Assembly: GCF_001183985.1 (NCBI RefSeq)
Contig: NZ_LFZW01000001.1
Location: 2,755,636-2,819,635, forward strand
Length of the DNA stretch: 64,000 nt
Source of the DNA: Peribacillus loiseleuriae
GTDB lineage: Bacteria > Bacillota > Bacilli > Bacillales > DSM-1321
Reading direction: 5' to 3'
The position numbers and the translations under genes were made by a program. Below are positions 32,422 to 39,220 of the stretch, in pieces (within the stretch, counting starts at the first letter, position 1; the number at the start of each line of letters is the position of its first letter). A model generated the notes under the pieces. That model searched no databases. It had not been told where the DNA came from and saw nothing but the letters and a program-made list of their open reading frames with translations.

Positions 32422-33189
32422 ATGAATCGATTCGATTTAACTGGAAAATCAGCTATTATTACAGGGGGTGGCCGCGGTCTTGGGTTACAGATTGCGAGTG
32501 CCTTAGCTGAAGCTGGTGCCAATATCGTAATTGCCTCCCGCGACATTACGGCGTGTGAGGCTGCCAAAGAAGAACTTAGTAAAATGGGGGTCAAAGTGCT
32601 TGCTTTTCAATGTGATATTACAAAAAAAGCCGATATCGATCATGTTGTGAGTGAATCTGTTGCAGAATTTGGTTCAATCGATATTTTAGTGAACAATAGC
32701 GGTACATCCTGGGTATCTCCTATGCTTGATCTTAAAGAGCATCAATGGAAAAAAGTAATGGATGTTAACGTAACCGGTACTTTCTTATTTTCTCAAGCAG
32801 TCGCAGCAGTCATGATCAAACAGCAATCTGGAAAAATTATTAATATAGCCTCTGTGAATGGATTTGGAGGTACTGCCCCTGAATTATTAGACACTATTGC
32901 TTATAACACAAGTAAAGGAGCAGTGATTACCTTTACGAAAGACTTAGGCGTCAAACTTGCAAGACATGGGATACAAGTAAATGCGATTGCCCCTGGTTTC
33001 TTTCCTACAAAAATCACACAAAAAATTATTGCGCAAACAAATTTTGATATTCTCGGGAATATGCCGGCAGGACGTTTCGGAAATCAAGAGGATTTAAAAG
33101 GTGCTGCTATTTTCCTTGCCTCAAAGGCATCTGATTATGTGATTGGTCATGTATTGGTTGTCGATGGCGGAATTACAGCACTCGTGTAA
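32422..33189 (+). CDS. Short-chain dehydrogenase/reductase in the PHA operon
   Basis: 255 residues. It is a classical SDR: NADP/NAD site TGGGRGLGLQIA, NNSGTSWVSP, the catalytic Ser in IINIASVNG, and YNTSKGA (Tyr-x-x-x-Lys). GGAGG precedes the ATG. The overall pattern is close to gluconate 5-dehydrogenase-like SDRs (FDLTGKSAIITGG), but its place 22 bp before phaR suggests a ketoacyl-CoA reductase making 3-hydroxyacyl-CoA for the synthase, as PhaB does. In B. megaterium phaB lies between phaR and phaC, so this order differs. Function is inferred from context. Confidence 0.85.
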   Translation: MNRFDLTGKSAIITGGGRGLGLQIASALAEAGANIVIASRDITACEAAKEELSKMGVKVLAFQCDITKKADIDHVVSESVAEFGSIDILVNNSGTSWVSPMLDLKEHQWKKVMDVNVTGTFLFSQAVAAVMIKQQSGKIINIASVNGFGGTAPELLDTIAYNTSKGAVITFTKDLGVKLARHGIQVNAIAPGFFPTKITQKIIAQTNFDILGNMPAGRFGNQEDLKGAAIFLASKASDYVIGHVLVVDGGITALV

Positions 33190-33211
33190 ACTATATGAAA
33201 GGAAGATCATG

Positions 33212-33649
33212 ATGGCTAAAAAACGGGATGTTTATTATGAATTGAAGAAACACGGAACCAATGCAGAACGAAAGATTAATAAGAAAATTCAAGATTCATT
33301 GAATAAAAAAGAAATCATTGAACTCGCAAGTTTATACTCTAATCAAATTGCCCCGCAAATTAAAAGAAACCAAGAAATTGTAGACTCGTTGTCCATTGCT
33401 CTTAATTTTCCTACAAAAAAAGATGTAGCTAATATCGCTAAAATGACCGTTCAACTTGAAGAAAAACTTGATAAATTAGACGAAACCCTGACTTCCCTGT
33501 TTCAAAAAAACCCTCAAATTAACATGGCTAATAACAAAACATCTGCAGATGAAAGAAAAAAACGACTAAAAAAGATTTTACTAACTTCCCTCTTTTCTGG
33601 AGATAATGCAAATGAGATGGGGAATTTAATTGGAAAAGCGAAAATCTAA
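33212..33649 (+). CDS. phaR: PHA synthase subunit PhaR (class IV)
   Basis: 145 residues from the ATG at 33212; an ATG three bases earlier is equally possible. AAAGGAAG precedes both. The sequence is lysine-rich and helical (NKKEIIELASLYSNQIAPQI, LEEKLDKLDETLTSLFQK), as in the PhaR partner subunit that activates PhaC in Bacillus. It has no catalytic motif of its own. Its 3' end overlaps the phaC start by 20 bp, giving translational coupling and equal subunit supply. Confidence 0.85.
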   Translation: MAKKRDVYYELKKHGTNAERKINKKIQDSLNKKEIIELASLYSNQIAPQIKRNQEIVDSLSIALNFPTKKDVANIAKMTVQLEEKLDKLDETLTSLFQKNPQINMANNKTSADERKKRLKKILLTSLFSGDNANEMGNLIGKAKI

Positions 33650-34676
33650 TCCAAAAAAAGCATCGAGATTGCAAAGTTTCTTAGACATCAAAAATCAAGA
33701 AATGCCACAAATAGGGATGACTCCGAGAGTAGCTGTCTGGAAAAAGAATAAGGCAACATTATGGCATTATCCAGCTAAGAAAAAACGATACAGCGTACCA
33801 ATTGTTATCGTTTATTCATTAATAAATCAGCCTTATATTTTTGATTTAGGTCCTGGTAATAGTTTGATAGAAGCTTTTGGTAAAGAAGGATATGACATCT
33901 ATTTATTAGATTTCGGAATTCCTGGGTACGAAGATGGAAACATTTCGTTAGATGAGTATATATTGGATTATATTCAAAAAGGAGTACAGCGAGTTCTTAG
34001 ACATTCCGGTGCAGAGGAAATTACCTTACTTGGTTCTTGTATTGGTGGTACATTAGCTGCCATGTATGCAGCGATTGCAGAGGAGCCAATAAAAAATTTA
34101 ATCTTAACGGTTTCTCCAATCGATTTCGAATCAGTACCCCAGTTTGATCAATGGACTGAAGCACTGCGTGAAGGAAGAGTCTCGTTTGATGAGATTTTGG
34201 ATGTATTTCAAATTGTACCAGCTAAAGCCGTTAAGTCCGGTATGCGACTGATGACTTCTCCCGTTTATGTGTCTCCTTTGCTGTCCTTATTATATCGGGC
34301 GGATGATGAAGAATATGTGAAAAGATGGCGGCGTTTTAATGCCTGGACAAATGATCATATTCCACTAACGGCAGGAACAATAAAGCAGATGGCGGATGAT
34401 CTCATAATTGGTAATAAATTGATTAAAGGAACACTTAAGATTCGAGGAAAAAAAGCAAAACTAAATAAAATAAAAGCTAATTTATTAGTCATTGCAAGCC
34501 AAAGTGATCGACTCGTGCCTAAAGCGATGATTGATCCGATTATGGGTGCCGTTTCAAGTACTGATAAAACATTACATCTATTAGAAAGTGGTCATGCCCA
34601 AATGCATTACGATGATACACTTCCTACTTATTATAAAGAATGGCTACCAGAGCGATCTGGACCGATTGGTCCCTGA
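33630..34676 (+). CDS. phaC: Class IV polyhydroxyalkanoate synthase catalytic subunit
   Basis: 348 residues from a TTG inside phaR. The alpha/beta-hydrolase core is clear: VPIVIVYSLINQPYIFDL, the lipase-like box GSCIGG with the catalytic Cys near residue 140, the Asp in ASQSDRLVP near 290 and the His in ESGHAQM near 322. It polymerises 3-hydroxyacyl-CoA into storage granules. The length matches class III/IV enzymes (about 360), and the neighbouring phaR makes it class IV. The first residues (EKRKSNPKKASRL) are basic. A group II intron relic begins immediately after the stop codon. Confidence 0.9.
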   Translation: MEKRKSNPKKASRLQSFLDIKNQEMPQIGMTPRVAVWKKNKATLWHYPAKKKRYSVPIVIVYSLINQPYIFDLGPGNSLIEAFGKEGYDIYLLDFGIPGYEDGNISLDEYILDYIQKGVQRVLRHSGAEEITLLGSCIGGTLAAMYAAIAEEPIKNLILTVSPIDFESVPQFDQWTEALREGRVSFDEILDVFQIVPAKAVKSGMRLMTSPVYVSPLLSLLYRADDEEYVKRWRRFNAWTNDHIPLTAGTIKQMADDLIIGNKLIKGTLKIRGKKAKLNKIKANLLVIASQSDRLVPKAMIDPIMGAVSSTDKTLHLLESGHAQMHYDDTLPTYYKEWLPERSGPIGP

Positions 34677-34677
34677 A

Positions 34678-35249
34678 ATCGAGTAGGGGTTGTCATTTTT
34701 GACCACCCCTCTTACTGATCCGTACGTGCGGATCTTCGCATACGAATCCTTTCACTAATTCCCATTTGTTACAAGGGGCATATATCTAGACTCAAGACTG
34801 ACCAATCCAAGTTTTATAAGGTACTGATTGTCCAAGGCTCCATGTATCATGGAGCTTTTTGAACTCCTCCAGGCGAACATTCTCGTACCTCTCAAGCTAC
34901 TTTCATTCCACCCTTTCTTTCTAAGATCCCGATACAGGCTTTTTACATGCCTCCAACTTTTTAGTTGAACCATCCTTACCCTTCTTCGTATCTATGAATC
35001 CAAGTTTTTAAAGAGTGTTTTCACATTTCGTTTTCCAAAGTAATTTCCCCATCCTCTAATGAGAGGATTAAGTTGCTCTTTTATGAGTAGCCCTATATCT
35101 ATAGTTTGATTCTTGTGTGTTTTCTTTTTCATTTTTTCTTTGAATTTCCGAAGTTTCTTTGGATCTATGCGTCGGATGTTGCGGATAAATTCATACCCTA
35201 GAAAAGTGAAGGTTTTTTTGCTTAATTCACTTTCATAGATGCTATTCAT
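34678..35249 (-). mobile_element. 3' remnant of a group II intron with maturase gene
   Basis: On the minus strand the last part of an intron-encoded reverse transcriptase/maturase survives (34755-35249), followed by what looks like ribozyme domains V and VI at about 34678-34755 (GTATGCGAAGATCCGCACGT, then a GGGGTGGT...AACCCCTAC stem and the end CTCGATT). The 5' ribozyme domains and the RT catalytic part are missing; the neighbouring MFS gene abuts the break. The element cannot move on its own. Confidence 0.8.
34755..35249 (-). pseudogene. Group II intron maturase, C-terminal fragment with nonsense codon
   Basis: The frame begins ESELSKKTFTFLGYEFIRNI and includes INPLIRGWGNYF-type sequence (EQLNPLIRGWGNYFGKRNVK), the GIIM maturase domain. 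A TAG at about 34989-34991 replaces the expected Trp in the LDSWIRRR region. The same frame then continues IRRRVRMVQLKSWRHVKSLY to ALDNQYLIKLG. Only the last 165 or so residues of a protein normally near 420-600 remain. Confidence 0.85.
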
Positions 35250-36493
35250 TAATTTAGCTTAGTATCAGGCCTCATGTGACGCATTTTATCCTTGCTGTTT
35301 GTACGCTCAGGGTGTGACTCCACTTGGACAGGAACCTTTAGAGTGATAGCAATTAAGAAAGAAATCACGCATAGTACGGCAATCACCGTAAAAGTTGGTA
35401 CGAATCCTCCAAGCATTGCGGCAATGAATGACCCTGCTAACGCCCCAATTCCAAAGCCTTGATAAATTATACCATAGTTTTTACTTTGGTTTTTCAAACC
35501 GAAGAAGTCGGCGACGATAGCTGGAAATATGGTGATATTTCCGCCGAAGCAAAATGCGATTGCCGCAACACAGCCAAAGAATAAGCCGTAATTCAAGTCA
35601 GCGAAGCTCAGGATCGTAACCGCCGTTGCCATAACGAGAAATGTGACTGAAACTACTTTTAAACGACCAACTTTATCAGATAATGCTCCAAGTATAAGTC
35701 TTCCAGTTGTATTGAAAATTGCCACTAACGCTACTGCATTTCCTGCTGTTGCTATATCAAGACCTGCTAAGCTTACACCTACATCCTTTACAATTCCGAT
35801 TAAATACAATCCGCTCATACAAGCTGTGAAGAATATCACAAATAATAAGTAGGCTTGCTTTGTTTTCAGCATTTCTTTCACTGTGTAATCCTTTGTCGCT
35901 ACCCCATTCAACTTGCTTACTTCTACTGCCTGTGCTTCCCTAATAAGGAATGATCCACCTAAAATCATCACAAGAACGATGATTCCCCAAATTAGGAAGG
36001 CTTGTGTCACACCGACTGACTCAATTAGCGATCCATTAATATATTTAAATAATAAACTGCCTGTCCCATACGCTCCCACTGAGATACCAGATATTAAGCC
36101 TTTATTCTTCGGAAACCATTTAATTAAATTAGATAGGGTTGTAATGTATGCTGTTCCATCTGCAAAACCCACGATAAAACCTGCTAATAGATAAAGCATC
36201 CATAATGATGACACCTGAGAACTAAGAATTAGCCCGATTCCAAGCACGATACCGGCGCAACCTACCAACCGACGTATGCCCCACTTATCCTGTAGCTTTC
36301 CGGCAAATAAGGTCGCAATTGCCAAGGCAAAGGTTGTGATTGAAAATGTTATCGCCACTGAGCTTAGCTCCCAGCCAAATTTATCCACTAACGGTTGATT
36401 GAATAAACTCCATGTATAGATTGTGCCAAGTCCCATCTGGACAATGATGGTACCTAATACAATAAGCAAACGGTTACCTGTGCTTGTTTTCAT
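35249..36493 (-). CDS. OFA-family MFS transporter (YhjX-like)
   Basis: 414 residues, 12 predicted membrane segments. Signatures are GTIYTWSLFNQPLVDKFGWE, FAGKLQDKWGIRR (MFS A-motif), FADGTAYITTLSNLIKWFPK and the second-half A-motif LILGALSDKVGRLK. The family includes oxalate:formate antiporters and the pyruvate-induced YhjX of E. coli; a monocarboxylate substrate is likely. Upstream lie direct repeats and genes for a LytS/LytTR system, exactly the partners seen for YhjX. Its TAA overlaps the intron remnant (TAATG), so the C-terminal tail (PERTNSKDKMRHMRPD) might be affected by that insertion. Confidence 0.9.
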   Translation of the reverse strand: MKTSTGNRLLIVLGTIIVQMGLGTIYTWSLFNQPLVDKFGWELSSVAITFSITTFALAIATLFAGKLQDKWGIRRLVGCAGIVLGIGLILSSQVSSLWMLYLLAGFIVGFADGTAYITTLSNLIKWFPKNKGLISGISVGAYGTGSLLFKYINGSLIESVGVTQAFLIWGIIVLVMILGGSFLIREAQAVEVSKLNGVATKDYTVKEMLKTKQAYLLFVIFFTACMSGLYLIGIVKDVGVSLAGLDIATAGNAVALVAIFNTTGRLILGALSDKVGRLKVVSVTFLVMATAVTILSFADLNYGLFFGCVAAIAFCFGGNITIFPAIVADFFGLKNQSKNYGIIYQGFGIGALAGSFIAAMLGGFVPTFTVIAVLCVISFLIAITLKVPVQVESHPERTNSKDKMRHMRPDTKLN

Positions 36494-36556
36494 CTTGATC
36501 TCCTCTTTCCATTCTGTCTTTCTTAGTTGTGGTTAAACTCTTTTGTCTATAAAAAA

Positions 36557-36625
36557 AGTATACCACCAGAATAAAAAATGAAATCGTTTCCAGAATGAAA
36601 TGCGGCGAATTCGGAATGAATTGCA
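36557..36625 (-). promoter_or_regulatory. LytTR-type direct repeats and promoter of the OFA transporter gene
   Basis: Minus-strand TGCAATTCAT (36616-36625), 11 bases, CGCATTTCAT (36595-36604); a third half-like GATTTCATTT lies nearer the promoter (about 36578-36587). The extended -10 TGGTATACT follows (TATACT at 36557-36562), with no good -35, as expected for an activated promoter. The spacing and sequence match the motif reported for E. coli YpdB (GGCATTTCAT-N11-GGCATTTCAT) at 8-9 of 10 positions per repeat. Confidence 0.75.
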
Positions 36626-36626
36626 C

Positions 36627-37397
36627 CTAGATTCGCATAATTTGTCGAAACTCCTTCACTTTGCTTCGGCTTACCGAAATCTCAACATCCATATCCTTCA
36701 ATTTCAACAAATAGGTTTGATTAAACCAAGGGATGATTTCATGAATTTTAGAAAGATTAACTGAGAATGAACGGTGGCATCGAAAAAAAAGGTCCGGTGG
36801 TAGCTTTGAATGAAATTCGGTGATACTCATCGGCATGATGTATTTCTCGTTTTTTGTAAATACCAGGGTTACCTTTTCACTCGCAGAAGAATAGTAAATA
36901 TCATTCGCATCTGTGACGATGATTTTCTCGTCTTTTCTCAGGTTGATACGATTAACCGTTCCAACTGGTTCCTTAACAAGGATAGTCTCTGTATTCGCAG
37001 CTTCATTTTCTTCAGAAACAGGCCCCTGCTGACTTCGCTTATAAGAAGTCTCGAGCTTGGTCAACATAGCGGCTATCCGTTTCTCATCATAAGGTTTTAA
37101 AATATAATCAAAGGCTTCGAGCTCGAAAGCTTGAACTGCATGCTCCCTATAAGCTGTCGTGAAAATAATATACGGCTTTTTAGCGAACTTATGGATATTT
37201 GCTGCTAAAAACATTCCATCGAGTGAGGGTATGTTGATATCTAAAAAAATAGCATCGGGTTCCTGATCCTTTAAATACTTCAAAACGTCCAGTCCATCCT
37301 CAAAATAGTCCGTCACTTCAATATCACTATATCTTTTTATTAAATACTCAAGCTCCTCACGAGCCAGTATCTCATCTTCCACTATGATCGCTTTCAT
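36627..37397 (-). CDS. LytTR-family response regulator (YpdB/BtsR-like)
   Basis: 256 residues. The receiver domain has acidic residues EDE near residue 7, the phosphorylated Asp in AIFLDINIPSLDG near 54, and KPYDEKR. A linker follows, then a LytTR DNA-binding domain (about 150-256: KIIVTDANDIYYSSASEK, HRSFSVNLSKIHEIIPW, VSVSRSKVKEFRQIM). AAAAGGAGAA precedes the ATG. The gene overlaps the kinase gene by four bases (ATGA). The LytTR type predicts binding to direct repeats spaced by two helical turns, which are found just after its own stop codon in front of the OFA transporter. Confidence 0.93.
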   Translation of the reverse strand: MKAIIVEDEILAREELEYLIKRYSDIEVTDYFEDGLDVLKYLKDQEPDAIFLDINIPSLDGMFLAANIHKFAKKPYIIFTTAYREHAVQAFELEAFDYILKPYDEKRIAAMLTKLETSYKRSQQGPVSEENEAANTETILVKEPVGTVNRINLRKDEKIIVTDANDIYYSSASEKVTLVFTKNEKYIMPMSITEFHSKLPPDLFFRCHRSFSVNLSKIHEIIPWFNQTYLLKLKDMDVEISVSRSKVKEFRQIMRI

Positions 37398-39058
37398 ACG
37401 TTCTCCTTTTTTGTAATGTCAAAGTAGACTTCTGTTCCAGGCGATAATCTACGGATGATCAGACCTTCCCCATAAATAAGCCTTACCCTTTGATGGACAT
37501 TGTATAAGCCAATTTGTTTGGTAGGAACATCATCTTGATGTATTTTATCAATCACTTCCTGTCTGATTCCGACACCCGTGTCCGTCACACTAATTCTTAC
37601 CTTATCTTTTAGATCTCGGACGGCTATCGTGACGACTCCAGGTTCCTTCATTTTTAACACTCCATGATTGATCGCATTCTCTACCAATGGCTGAATTAGT
37701 AGGTTTGGTATTTGCACGTTCACTTCATCTATTTCATATTCCACTTGTAATCGGTTCCCAAATCTAGCTTTTTCAATTTCCACATAATCACGTATCTGCT
37801 TAAGTGCCCTATGAATATCAATCATTTCATCAGTCAGCTCTAGATTATAACGCATATAGCCAGAGAGATTGATGATTAATTCACGTGCCTTTTCAGGGCT
37901 TTTGCGCGTAGTCGAGGCGATAGCATTCAAGGCATTGAACAGAAAATGCGGATTGATTCTTGTCTGAAGAGCTCTCAACTCTGCCTTATTCGCTGCTTCC
38001 TTAATCTGTTCAACCCGAGATACTTCCATGAGAGTTGAAATGATCTGAGCTAAGCCGATTGCCATTGTCTGTAATGGATACGTGATTTTATATGCTTTGC
38101 GGTAATAGATTTTCATCGTTCCCGTAATTTCTCCTCTTTCCGCTAAAGGAATGATCAATAGACATTTCATTTCCGGCATATTACTATCCGTGGCTCGGTT
38201 GCGAATCGTAATTTCACCACTTCGAATCGTTGCCTTCGTCAACTCACTATTTATTTCATGCTCAATTCGATACCTTTCCTCACCAAACCCTACATATGCA
38301 AGAACATCTCTCGTATCGGTAATCGCGACTGCGTCTGCTTTGATGTCATTTTTGATAATTTTGCATATTGTATGCAATGATTTATTGTTCATCGAACGGA
38401 AATATGGGAGCGTTTTGTTGGCAATATCCAAAGCTAATTTGGCCTGCATAGCTGCAATCATTTCCTTCTCACTTTCGACGCTCCTTACCAATATCACAAT
38501 GAATCCAATACTAACCTCGCCAATAATCATTGGCAGCCCAATAATAGTAACAATTTCTAAACCAAGCTCAAAGGGCTCAGCAAAAACAAGGATGAGCAGC
38601 ATCGTCATGACTTCGAGAAGCATTCCTACAGCTATCCCCGAAATCCAATGCAGCGATCTTTTGACCTTGACACTGATATAGGCCGAGACAACTCCAGCGA
38701 TAACACTTGTGATGAGACATGGAATCGAGGTGATGCCGCCAATATCAATCAAATAGCGGTGAATCCCTGAGACAAGCCCTGTAACAATCCCTACCCAAGG
38801 GCCAAACAAAATCCCGCCAGATACTATGGCAATAATTCGTACATTCACGAGTGAGCCATCCACATCAATTCCTGAATAAGTACCAAAAACAGCAAAGCCG
38901 CAGAAAACAATCGTAATGACAATCAGTTCAAGTGGCGAGTTTTTGTCTTTTTGAAGCGATTCCTTAAATCTCGGGATTCTAATTAAGAAGAACAAGAATA
39001 AGAGAAGTAGGGCAGCCCGTTCAAATAGCTGGGTCACCATTTCTAAAGATGTACTCAT
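37394..39058 (-). CDS. LytS-type sensor histidine kinase (YpdA-like)
   Basis: 554 residues. The 5TMR-LYT membrane sensor (residues 1-190, LELIVITIVFCGFAVFGTYSG, GPWVGIVTGLVSGIHRYLIDIGG) is followed by a GAF-like region (220-345), a His-kinase domain with the phospho-acceptor in RINPHFLFNALNAIAS (His near residue 370), and HATPase motifs ENAINHGV and DTGVGI. This architecture is shared by LytS, BtsS and YpdA, which sense pyruvate. The ligand is inferred from the family and from the target transporter. It is the first gene of the three-gene set. Confidence 0.93.
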   Translation of the reverse strand: MSTSLEMVTQLFERAALLLLFLFFLIRIPRFKESLQKDKNSPLELIVITIVFCGFAVFGTYSGIDVDGSLVNVRIIAIVSGGILFGPWVGIVTGLVSGIHRYLIDIGGITSIPCLITSVIAGVVSAYISVKVKRSLHWISGIAVGMLLEVMTMLLILVFAEPFELGLEIVTIIGLPMIIGEVSIGFIVILVRSVESEKEMIAAMQAKLALDIANKTLPYFRSMNNKSLHTICKIIKNDIKADAVAITDTRDVLAYVGFGEERYRIEHEINSELTKATIRSGEITIRNRATDSNMPEMKCLLIIPLAERGEITGTMKIYYRKAYKITYPLQTMAIGLAQIISTLMEVSRVEQIKEAANKAELRALQTRINPHFLFNALNAIASTTRKSPEKARELIINLSGYMRYNLELTDEMIDIHRALKQIRDYVEIEKARFGNRLQVEYEIDEVNVQIPNLLIQPLVENAINHGVLKMKEPGVVTIAVRDLKDKVRISVTDTGVGIRQEVIDKIHQDDVPTKQIGLYNVHQRVRLIYGEGLIIRRLSPGTEVYFDITKKENV

Positions 39059-39220
39059 TTCTTTATGTCCTCACTTTCAGTATTCCAAAATTCATTTGTT
39101 TAGTTTACCAAAGTTTTATTTCAAATAAAAACGCTTACGCTTTTTATAAAAAATATTGAAGTTTATCACTATAAAACTGTCTATACCCTCTCTTTAAAAT
39201 TGAAAGCACAAAATTTCATT

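Follow-up and report, generated by a model that had tools for sequence, protein, structure and literature searches.

We found in Peribacillus loiseleuriae a cassette of three genes that is very likely a Bacillaceae form of the YpdA/YpdB (PyrS/PyrR) system, with a single target, the gene of a YhjX-like monocarboxylate (pyruvate/lactate) transporter. The counterpart in E. coli is already known; no paper on a Bacillota form was found in the literature searched. Within the window, by which we mean the whole 64-kb stretch of DNA that was analyzed, the transporter, the regulator and the kinase are encoded by three adjacent open reading frames on the minus strand. The features of the cassette and its surroundings are:

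34672..39213: insertion that contains the cassette, about 4.5 kb, beside phaC (limits approximate)
34678..34750, minus strand: RNA resembling a group II intron 3' end (29 bits, Rfam gathering score of 40 not reached), located at the insertion's left edge
34992..35249, minus strand: group II intron maturase fragment (GIIM domain), adjoining the 3' end of the transporter gene
35249..36493, minus strand: YhjX-like OFA/MFS monocarboxylate transporter, 414 aa
36557..36562, minus strand: predicted extended -10 element (TGG-TATACT) of the transporter promoter
36579..36592, minus strand: cre-like box TGGAAACGATTTCA, 2 nt after half-site B and spanning the expected place of the -35 element
36595..36604, minus strand: predicted operator half-site B, CGCATTTCAT, 21 bp from half-site A
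36616..36625, minus strand: predicted operator half-site A, TGCAATTCAT, followed by TCCG and starting 1 nt after the regulator stop codon
36627..37397, minus strand: YpdB-type (PyrR) response regulator, 256 aa, with receiver (Asp53) and LytTR DNA-binding domain
37394..39058, minus strand: YpdA-type (PyrS) histidine kinase of the LytS family, 554 aa, with 5TM-5TMR_LYT, His_kinase and HATPase_c domains; phosphorylation residue His371 in the H-box NPHFLFN

Genes of the cassette and their counterparts in E. coli

The set of kinase, LytTR regulator and OFA transporter, which a sequence-only reading of this DNA had described as a YpdAB-YhjX-like module, was borne out by the open reading frames and their domains. 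As expected of YpdA and YpdB, the kinase combines 5TM-5TMR_LYT with a LytS-type transmitter and the regulator a receiver with LytTR. The histidine of the H-box and Asp53 of the regulator are invariant in the alignments, and the equivalent of BtsS His382 is present in 94 of 94 kinase rows, among which the window sequence occurs once more as L124. A GAF domain has been reported for E. coli YpdA (PMC5552118); a scan of the window kinase alone gave no Pfam match to this domain at 1e-3.

The identity to the E. coli proteins amounts to 58% for YpdA (553 aa), 60% for YpdB (260 aa) and 48% for YhjX (391 aa). Over its last 100 residues, which comprise the LytTR domain, the regulator is 69% identical to YpdB, 24% to BtsR and 38% to the LytT of its own genome, and in a quick tree the window pair groups with YpdAB, apart from BtsSR and LytST. 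Sequence comparison thereby confirmed kinase and regulator as orthologues of YpdA and YpdB and the transporter as a homologue of YhjX, an assignment that the operator described below also upholds. Both systems share the orthologous pair, the homologous transporter, a nearly identical operator with 21-bp spacing and a single target, which is reported for E. coli in PMC5552118 and corresponds here to one genomic site as judged by sequence only. They differ in that E. coli yhjX is unlinked to ypdAB and encodes a divergent OFA type grouping with those of Aeromonas and Plesiomonas (quick tree), whereas in the window the three genes lie side by side, with the operator next to the regulator stop codon and accompanied by a cre-like box.

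The BtsS/BtsR-btsT system of E. coli resembles the cassette in the architecture of kinase and regulator and in three of four pyruvate-site residues, but its kinase and regulator are only about 30% identical to the window pair and its target is of the CstA type. No CstA-type target lies beside the window pair and the similarity is not high; by gene content, the better counterpart of BtsSR-btsT is the genome's own LytST-CstA locus. At that locus we observed a tandem TGCA-N-CTCA pattern. When this pattern was sought in 28 LytT-CstA loci of the genus (L009-L036), the regulator end could be used in 14, of which 4 matched with at most three mismatches.

Operator and promoter of the transporter gene

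The two half-sites form the tandem site TGCAATTCAT-N11-CGCATTTCAT at 36595-36625 on the minus strand. The corresponding E. coli promoter PyhjX reads GGCATTTCATTCCG-N7-GGCATTTCATGCCG, so that the likeness extends beyond the first 10-mer into TCCG. Relative to the operator GGCATTTCAT-N11-GGCATTTCAT in front of the yhjX-type gene, half-site A has two differences and half-site B one. An IUPAC pattern allowing up to three mismatches found one match in the 64-kb window, with no mismatch, and GCAWTTCATTC-N10-GCAWTTCATTC at the same tolerance found one match, again without mismatch, in the whole 5.43-Mb genome, in which the reversed pattern as a control had none.

It is scarcely credible that these repeats are due to chance or are a generic feature of LytTR promoters. 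LytTR sites generally consist of two repeats of 9-11 bp, 11-13 bp apart, according to PMC4847170, and 14 of 100 shuffled windows were matched once or more when up to three mismatches were tolerated. Against this reading, the letters are conserved at a fixed place: the operator starts exactly 1 nt past the regulator stop codon in 72 of the 77 loci that share this gene order, and it is the only match in the genome. The site was furthermore absent from the promoters of unlinked OFA genes examined (37 matches, 9 of them without a locus), since all 28 that were scored remained below 0. Using an operator matrix with leave-one-out scoring, 74/79 loci reached at least 15 and 790 shuffles reached 7.8 at most; two of the 79 (L073 and L078) did not reach 10 even when the 350-bp cut was dropped. 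The E. coli yhjX promoter scored 35.7 with a training set that did not include any gammaproteobacterium. At two Sporolactobacillus loci, where the transporter gene precedes the kinase gene, the operator stays with the transporter and is not found behind the regulator. For the sequences that follow the regulator genes in Acetoanaerobium, Ilyobacter and K. aerogenes, the matrix scores were 5.3, -24.9 and -35.2, respectively, and repeats with 20-bp spacing seen by eye in Salinivibrio scored -17.2. The conservation of the site at a constant position among orthologous loci confirmed that the window repeats are not a product of chance, and both the matching 21-bp-spaced repeats claimed in the sequence-only reading and the scan of OFA promoters next to LytTR genes in Bacillota that it proposed came out in its favor.

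Another stretch resembling the repeats, located 21 bp upstream of half-site A within the last codons of the regulator (RQ[IL]M), was considered as a third half-site and is not claimed. Synonymous codon choice gave no signal for the Ile/Leu codon (third-base C in 18/76, 18.3 expected); third-base G in the Arg codon occurred in 42/69 (20.3 expected), a count to which related Paenibacillus rows sharing AGG do not contribute independently.

The predicted transporter promoter has a good extended -10 element and, by eye, no good -35 element, as expected of an activator-dependent promoter. The cre consensus is TGWAANCGNTNWCA, and the box that abuts the operator deviates from it by one mismatch. Such a box is present in 32 of the 34 loci labelled Bacillaceae, 27 times at the identical offset (shuffles 7.1%), and is mostly absent from Paenibacillaceae (9/34, scattered). 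In B. subtilis, the cre of pftAB overlaps the -35 element, as described in PMC5626966. The position of the box after the operator suggests that pyruvate activation and glucose repression would meet at the transporter promoter; the earlier reading, correct about gene set and site, had missed this box.

Ligand, substrate and alternative explanations

Three of the four residues assigned to pyruvate binding in BtsS (PMC10653868) are retained in the window kinase: Arg74, Arg101 and Cys114 correspond to Arg72, Arg99 and Cys110, the equivalents of which occur in all 94 kinase rows. The position of BtsS Ser113 is occupied by Thr in the window kinase and in E. coli YpdA. As BtsS-S113T is inactive according to the same paper, affinity or ligand may differ. 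From the three retained residues we infer that the kinase senses pyruvate. It would bind extracellular pyruvate through its membrane domain by means of Arg74, Arg101 and Cys114 and phosphorylate the regulator at Asp53; two regulator molecules would then occupy half-sites A and B, 21 bp apart, and switch on the transporter promoter. In the presence of preferred sugars, CcpA bound to the cre-like box between half-site B and the -10 element would shut the promoter off.

What YhjX itself does is described as elusive in PMC7730263. A system that senses and takes up lactate or another monocarboxylate instead is a less probable but serious alternative: the transporter exceeds the cut-off of the NCBIfam model for the L-lactate transporter SfMCT (NF049980; 394.9 bits, cut-off 320), and changes at Cys110 or Ser113 of BtsS, the latter being Thr here, may alter the ligand, for example to lactate, as the authors of PMC10653868 suggest. 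However, Cys110 and both arginines are kept in the window kinase, and the pyruvate-responsive YpdA of E. coli has the same Thr. It is highly improbable that the transporter is an oxalate:formate antiporter (OxlT), as the name of the OFA family would imply. The protein matches two OFA models (TIGR00890 and TIGR04259), and its second-best PDB match is OxlT, but both scores lie below the cut-offs (325.5 versus 374.85 and 183.4 versus 335). The pocket of OxlT contains Lys355, which binds oxalate, and Arg272. The arginine is shared by 83/83 aligned transporters including YhjX, and the position of Lys355 is Phe in all 83.

It is also very unlikely that the pair is a LytST of the B. subtilis kind, controlling pftAB/lrgAB or cstA and located beside an OFA gene by accident. 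The domain architecture is the same, the genome has two LrgB homologues and, according to PMC5626966, the LytT site of B. subtilis resembles the YpdB site; LytST-pftAB likewise uses LytS/LytTR proteins for pyruvate, with two 13-nt boxes 8 apart and thus a 21-bp period. Yet the same genome has a separate LytST, which adjoins a CstA-like gene and shows 33% and 38% identity with the window pair, whereas the identity of the window pair to YpdAB is 58-60% and the tree separates the pair from LytST (SH-aLRT 99, quick tree). The transporter gene adjoins the pair in 78/80 loci (best 80 of 512), and the operator has its single genomic match there. LytST-pftAB differs in its LrgAB-type target and belongs to a distinct subfamily, as judged by the LytT of the window genome itself (38% identity in the LytTR domain). 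No LrgAB-type target lies beside the window pair, both LrgB homologues being located elsewhere.

Genomic setting, distribution and probable transfer

The pair is flanked by the OFA gene and an ABC transporter gene, the latter judged from sequence. In G029 and G017, the genomes with the closest phaC, the segment between phaC and the ABC transporter gene is missing, and 343 and 203 unaligned bases, respectively, are found at that site instead. The cassette was probably gained by insertion at this site, with the PHA synthase genes on one side and the ABC transporter gene on the other, rather than lost from the relatives. The sequence-only reading had recognized the cassette genes, but had overlooked their location on an insertion as well as their recurrence in many Bacillaceae and Paenibacillus and their patchiness in the phylum. 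Among the fetched Bacillota loci (best 80 of 512), 78 of 80 have all three genes, and in the exceptions (L053 and L077) the contig ends shortly past the regulator; among 397 other Bacillota genomes sampled, 6 have the kinase at E 1e-130 or better.

The kinases of the 80 best loci share 57-64% identity with E. coli YpdA, the split reading frames of L062 being left out. The corresponding values are 60% for Aeromonas, 58% for Plesiomonas, 55% for Salinivibrio, 76% for Serratia and 88% for Klebsiella aerogenes. Aeromonas caviae and Plesiomonas share gene order and an operator 1 nt past the regulator stop codon with the window, but differ in the first 200 kinase residues (52% and 54% identity) and in the OFA type. 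The earlier view of a striking conservation across distance has to be softened, because Bacillota kinases are about as near to E. coli YpdA as those of several gammaproteobacteria, or nearer. Horizontal transfer from one phylum to another is thereby favored over retention of the system since the phyla diverged.

Three trees were calculated on hand-chosen rows (43, 40 and 41) and not on all loci, those of OFA and the first of kinase/regulator being quick trees; Salinivibrio forms a long branch in all three. In the best tree, gammaproteobacterial YpdAB is nested inside Bacilli (support 95/95). Monophyly of Bacilli was not rejected by the AU test (p-AU 0.357). The OFA protein of Serratia is Bacilli-like, and those of E. 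coli, Aeromonas and Plesiomonas are of another type. We tentatively propose, at somewhat less than an even chance, that the cassette of sensor, regulator, operator and transporter originated in Bacilli and crossed once to Gammaproteobacteria, where the transporter was exchanged and the operator letters remained nearly fixed. The scattered ypdAB and yhjX of E. coli would then be a broken-up form, and a cre box fused to the operator in Bacillaceae would have added CcpA control.

These results extend a pyruvate circuit of E. coli, treated for Gammaproteobacteria alone in the literature examined, to Bacillaceae and Paenibacillus, in which the operator letters are almost unchanged, and the 74 natural operators with their regulators provide a comparative set for the DNA code of LytTR domains. 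In this strain, the predicted link between pyruvate uptake and glucose repression adjoins genes of PHA (bioplastic) synthesis. The findings suggest that a whole sensor-to-promoter unit may move between phyla, and the cassette with sensor, regulator, transporter and likely operator may have spread as a unit between distant bacteria.

The YpdAB-type cassette and its operator

Three minus-strand genes form the cassette, which agrees with the grouping of kinase, LytTR regulator and OFA transporter made in the sequence-only reading. The features are:

37394-39058, minus strand: LytS-family kinase, 554 aa
36627-37397, minus strand: LytTR response regulator, 256 aa
36595-36625, minus strand: predicted tandem operator TGCAATTCAT-N11-CGCATTTCAT, one base after the regulator stop codon
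36579-36592: cre-like box, 1 mismatch
35249-36493, minus strand: MFS transporter of the OFA type, 414 aa

BLASTP against E. coli K-12 proteins taken by accession gave 58% over 553 aa for the kinase and YpdA, 60% over 260 aa for the regulator and YpdB, and 48% over 391 aa for the transporter and YhjX; BtsS and BtsR reached 29-32% with the window pair. A second LytST pair of the ordinary type (33% and 38%) is located elsewhere in the genome and adjoins a gene which we take to be CstA-like from the start of the protein. The genome therefore resembles E. coli in having LytS/LytTR systems of both kinds, CstA-linked and OFA-type.

The E. coli YpdB target is given as GGCATTTCATTCCGTTCTGATGGCATTTCATGCC in PMC4847170 and was also read from the K-12 sequence. 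The similarity of the repeats in the transporter promoter to this motif, pointed out earlier, was borne out by the comparison and extends to the TCCG after the first half-site. With up to three mismatches the two-part pattern matched the whole genome only at the window site, and the single half-site TGCANTTCATTCC occurs there and at one other place.

Conservation of the operator

Scanning of GTDB species genomes with a kinase alignment yielded 512 relatives, and the best 80 of these, all Bacillota by title, were fetched. A regulator and an OFA gene lie beside the kinase in 78 of the 80; the contigs of L053 and L077 stop shortly past the regulator. The check suggested by the sequence-only reading, a motif scan of OFA promoters beside LytTR genes, was run on 79 loci (the 78 and the window) with a position weight matrix built from 74, after five loci with more than 5 mismatches had been dropped. 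Using leave-one-out matrices, 74 of the 79 loci scored at least 15 and 75 at least 10 within about the first 350 bp; the best score of 790 dinucleotide shuffles was 7.8. Without the 350-bp cut and with a matrix leaving out the window only, 77 of 79 reached at least 10, those below being L073 and L078. The operator starts exactly 1 nt past the regulator stop in 72 of the 77 regulator-then-transporter loci; three of the other five have it at 99, 337 and 345 nt, and in two it was not found by the matrix scan.

In two of the 78 loci, both from Sporolactobacillus (L109 and L111), the transporter is located before the kinase. Here the operator was found in front of the moved transporter (scores 33.2 and 43.3) and not behind the regulator (-12.5 and -20.5), which indicates that it goes with the transporter. 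A further 37 family OFA hits are not beside YpdAB and come from genomes without an orthologous regulator; the promoters of all 28 with a scored locus were below 0 (10 at 67-76% identity, 18 at 28-30%). One gene of this unlinked set (L144) has an internal stop. The E. coli yhjX promoter scored 35.7 with a training set containing no gammaproteobacterium.

A search with YpdB gave 2098 proteins with E-values of 1e-50 or lower, and the organisms named among the best 120 of these are Enterobacteriaceae; a plasmid collection contained 54 matching records, some of megabase size or chromosome-like. The loci fetched from this collection were those of Serratia proteamaculans, Klebsiella aerogenes, Aeromonas caviae, Plesiomonas and Salinivibrio, with Acetoanaerobium and Ilyobacter added as distant relatives. 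Aeromonas and Plesiomonas show kinase, regulator and OFA gene in this order, and their operators start 1 nt past the regulator stop (20.9 and 18.3), the same arrangement as in the Bacillota. In S. proteamaculans the operator (23.0) is in front of the OFA gene, one gene from the regulator; this promoter (L131, 7991-8046) contains three tandem repeats spaced at 21 bp, with GCAACTCAT and GCATTTCAT alternating. According to PMC5552118, no YpdB motif could be identified in S. marcescens or A. hydrophila; the congeners examined here do have repeats resembling this motif. In Salinivibrio the repeats are spaced 20 bp by eye and were not recognised by the matrix (-17.2). The K. aerogenes stretch contains no OFA gene and no operator behind the regulator (-35.2). 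Acetoanaerobium and Ilyobacter scored 5.3 and -24.9; they carry distant YpdAB-like pairs (L136 and L137, kinase 40-43% identical), and an OFA gene is absent from the fetched stretches.

A careful kinase-plus-regulator tree of 40 rows unites the six gammaproteobacterial rows in a single clade (100/100), which falls within the Bacilli (95/95); a tree with the Bacilli as one clade was not rejected (p-AU 0.357). A quick OFA tree groups E. coli YhjX with Aeromonas and Plesiomonas. The other four gammaproteobacterial transporters form a clade in this tree that excludes the one from Serratia, 66% identical to that of the window, which joins Bacilli rows at an unresolved fork.

Possible catabolite control boxes

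Boxes were searched with TGWAANCGNTNWCA, the cre consensus, allowing up to 2 mismatches within 60 bp of half-site B in the 74 of 79 loci with a site. A cre-like box was present in 32 of 34 loci labelled Bacillaceae, in 27 exactly 2 nt past B (shuffles 7.1%); two rows with this label, L092 and L110, resemble Paenibacillus by eye. Paenibacillaceae had it in 9 of 34 loci at scattered places (shuffles 3.7%), Sporolactobacillaceae in 2 of 4 and Carnobacteriaceae in 1 of 1. In the kinase promoter (39130-39160, minus strand) AAAAGCGTAAGCGTTTTTAT resembles, by eye, a second cre with two mismatches.

In the B. subtilis pftAB promoter two LytT boxes are combined with a cre that overlaps the -35 (PMC5626966). 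The predicted layout of the transporter promoter in the window is the same, with another regulator and another transporter. At the LytST-CstA locus of the same genome (L038, 5890-6065) the CstA-like gene promoter contains, by eye, TGCATCTCAC-N11-TGCAACTCAA, and a possible -10 there is covered by the cre-like TGAAAACGCTATAA; this would be a sister operator within one cell, written in other letters.

Distribution, history and probable ligand

Of 398 evenly sampled Bacillota genomes, seven had the kinase at E 1e-130 or better: the window genome and six others, of which five are from one family of the same class and one is from another class (45% identity). The distribution in Bacillota is patchy. 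Among the papers listed in a search covering subscription literature thinly, none deals with a Bacillota YpdAB-OFA system by title or start of abstract; as far as searched, the system is new for this phylum.

Among 43 family genomes, 36 of the genus, the cassette regulator occurs only in the window genome and G006; other matches show 32-41% identity. In the family genomes with the closest phaC genes, G029 (93%) and G017 (87%), phaC and an ABC transporter gene adjoin and about 34672-39213 (4.5 kb) is absent, both flanks aligning at 86-94%. The junction is not clean, since 343 (G029) and 203 (G017) unaligned bases replace the segment. Because few relatives have the cassette, gain is a simpler reading than loss. 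At the left edge of the insertion are a maturase fragment and a 29-bit match (gathering 40) to the 3' end of a group II intron; they may be connected with the arrival of the cassette. This intron remnant (34678-35249, minus strand) abuts the transporter 3' end. PHA genes (SDR reductase, PhaR-like, PhaC; 32422-34676, plus strand) directly adjoin the cassette and are present without it in G029 and G017.

With the NCBIfam SfMCT (L-lactate transporter) model the transporter scores 394.9, above the cut-off of 320, and it is below the cut-off of the oxalate/formate antiport models. We aligned 83 transporters (window, 77 fetched Bacillota loci, four gammaproteobacterial loci and YhjX), leaving out L095 (split ORF), L053 and L077. 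All 83 keep the pocket Arg common to SfMCT (Arg280) and OxlT (Arg272) and have Phe at the position of OxlT Lys355. The pyruvate site of BtsS consists of Arg72, Arg99, Cys110 and Ser113 (PMC10653868). The equivalents of the first three are invariant in 94 kinase rows (L124 repeats the window; L062 was dropped for a split ORF and L113 for a short one), and the Ser113 position is Thr in 84, Ser in six, Ala in three and Val in one, with Thr in the window kinase and E. coli YpdA alike. These residues would fit pyruvate sensing of the YpdA kind; lactate is also possible. Taken together, it is well supported that the window system is a real orthologue of the known system with an intact operator; we infer the mechanism of its regulation with confidence, and its exact ligand and substrate with less.
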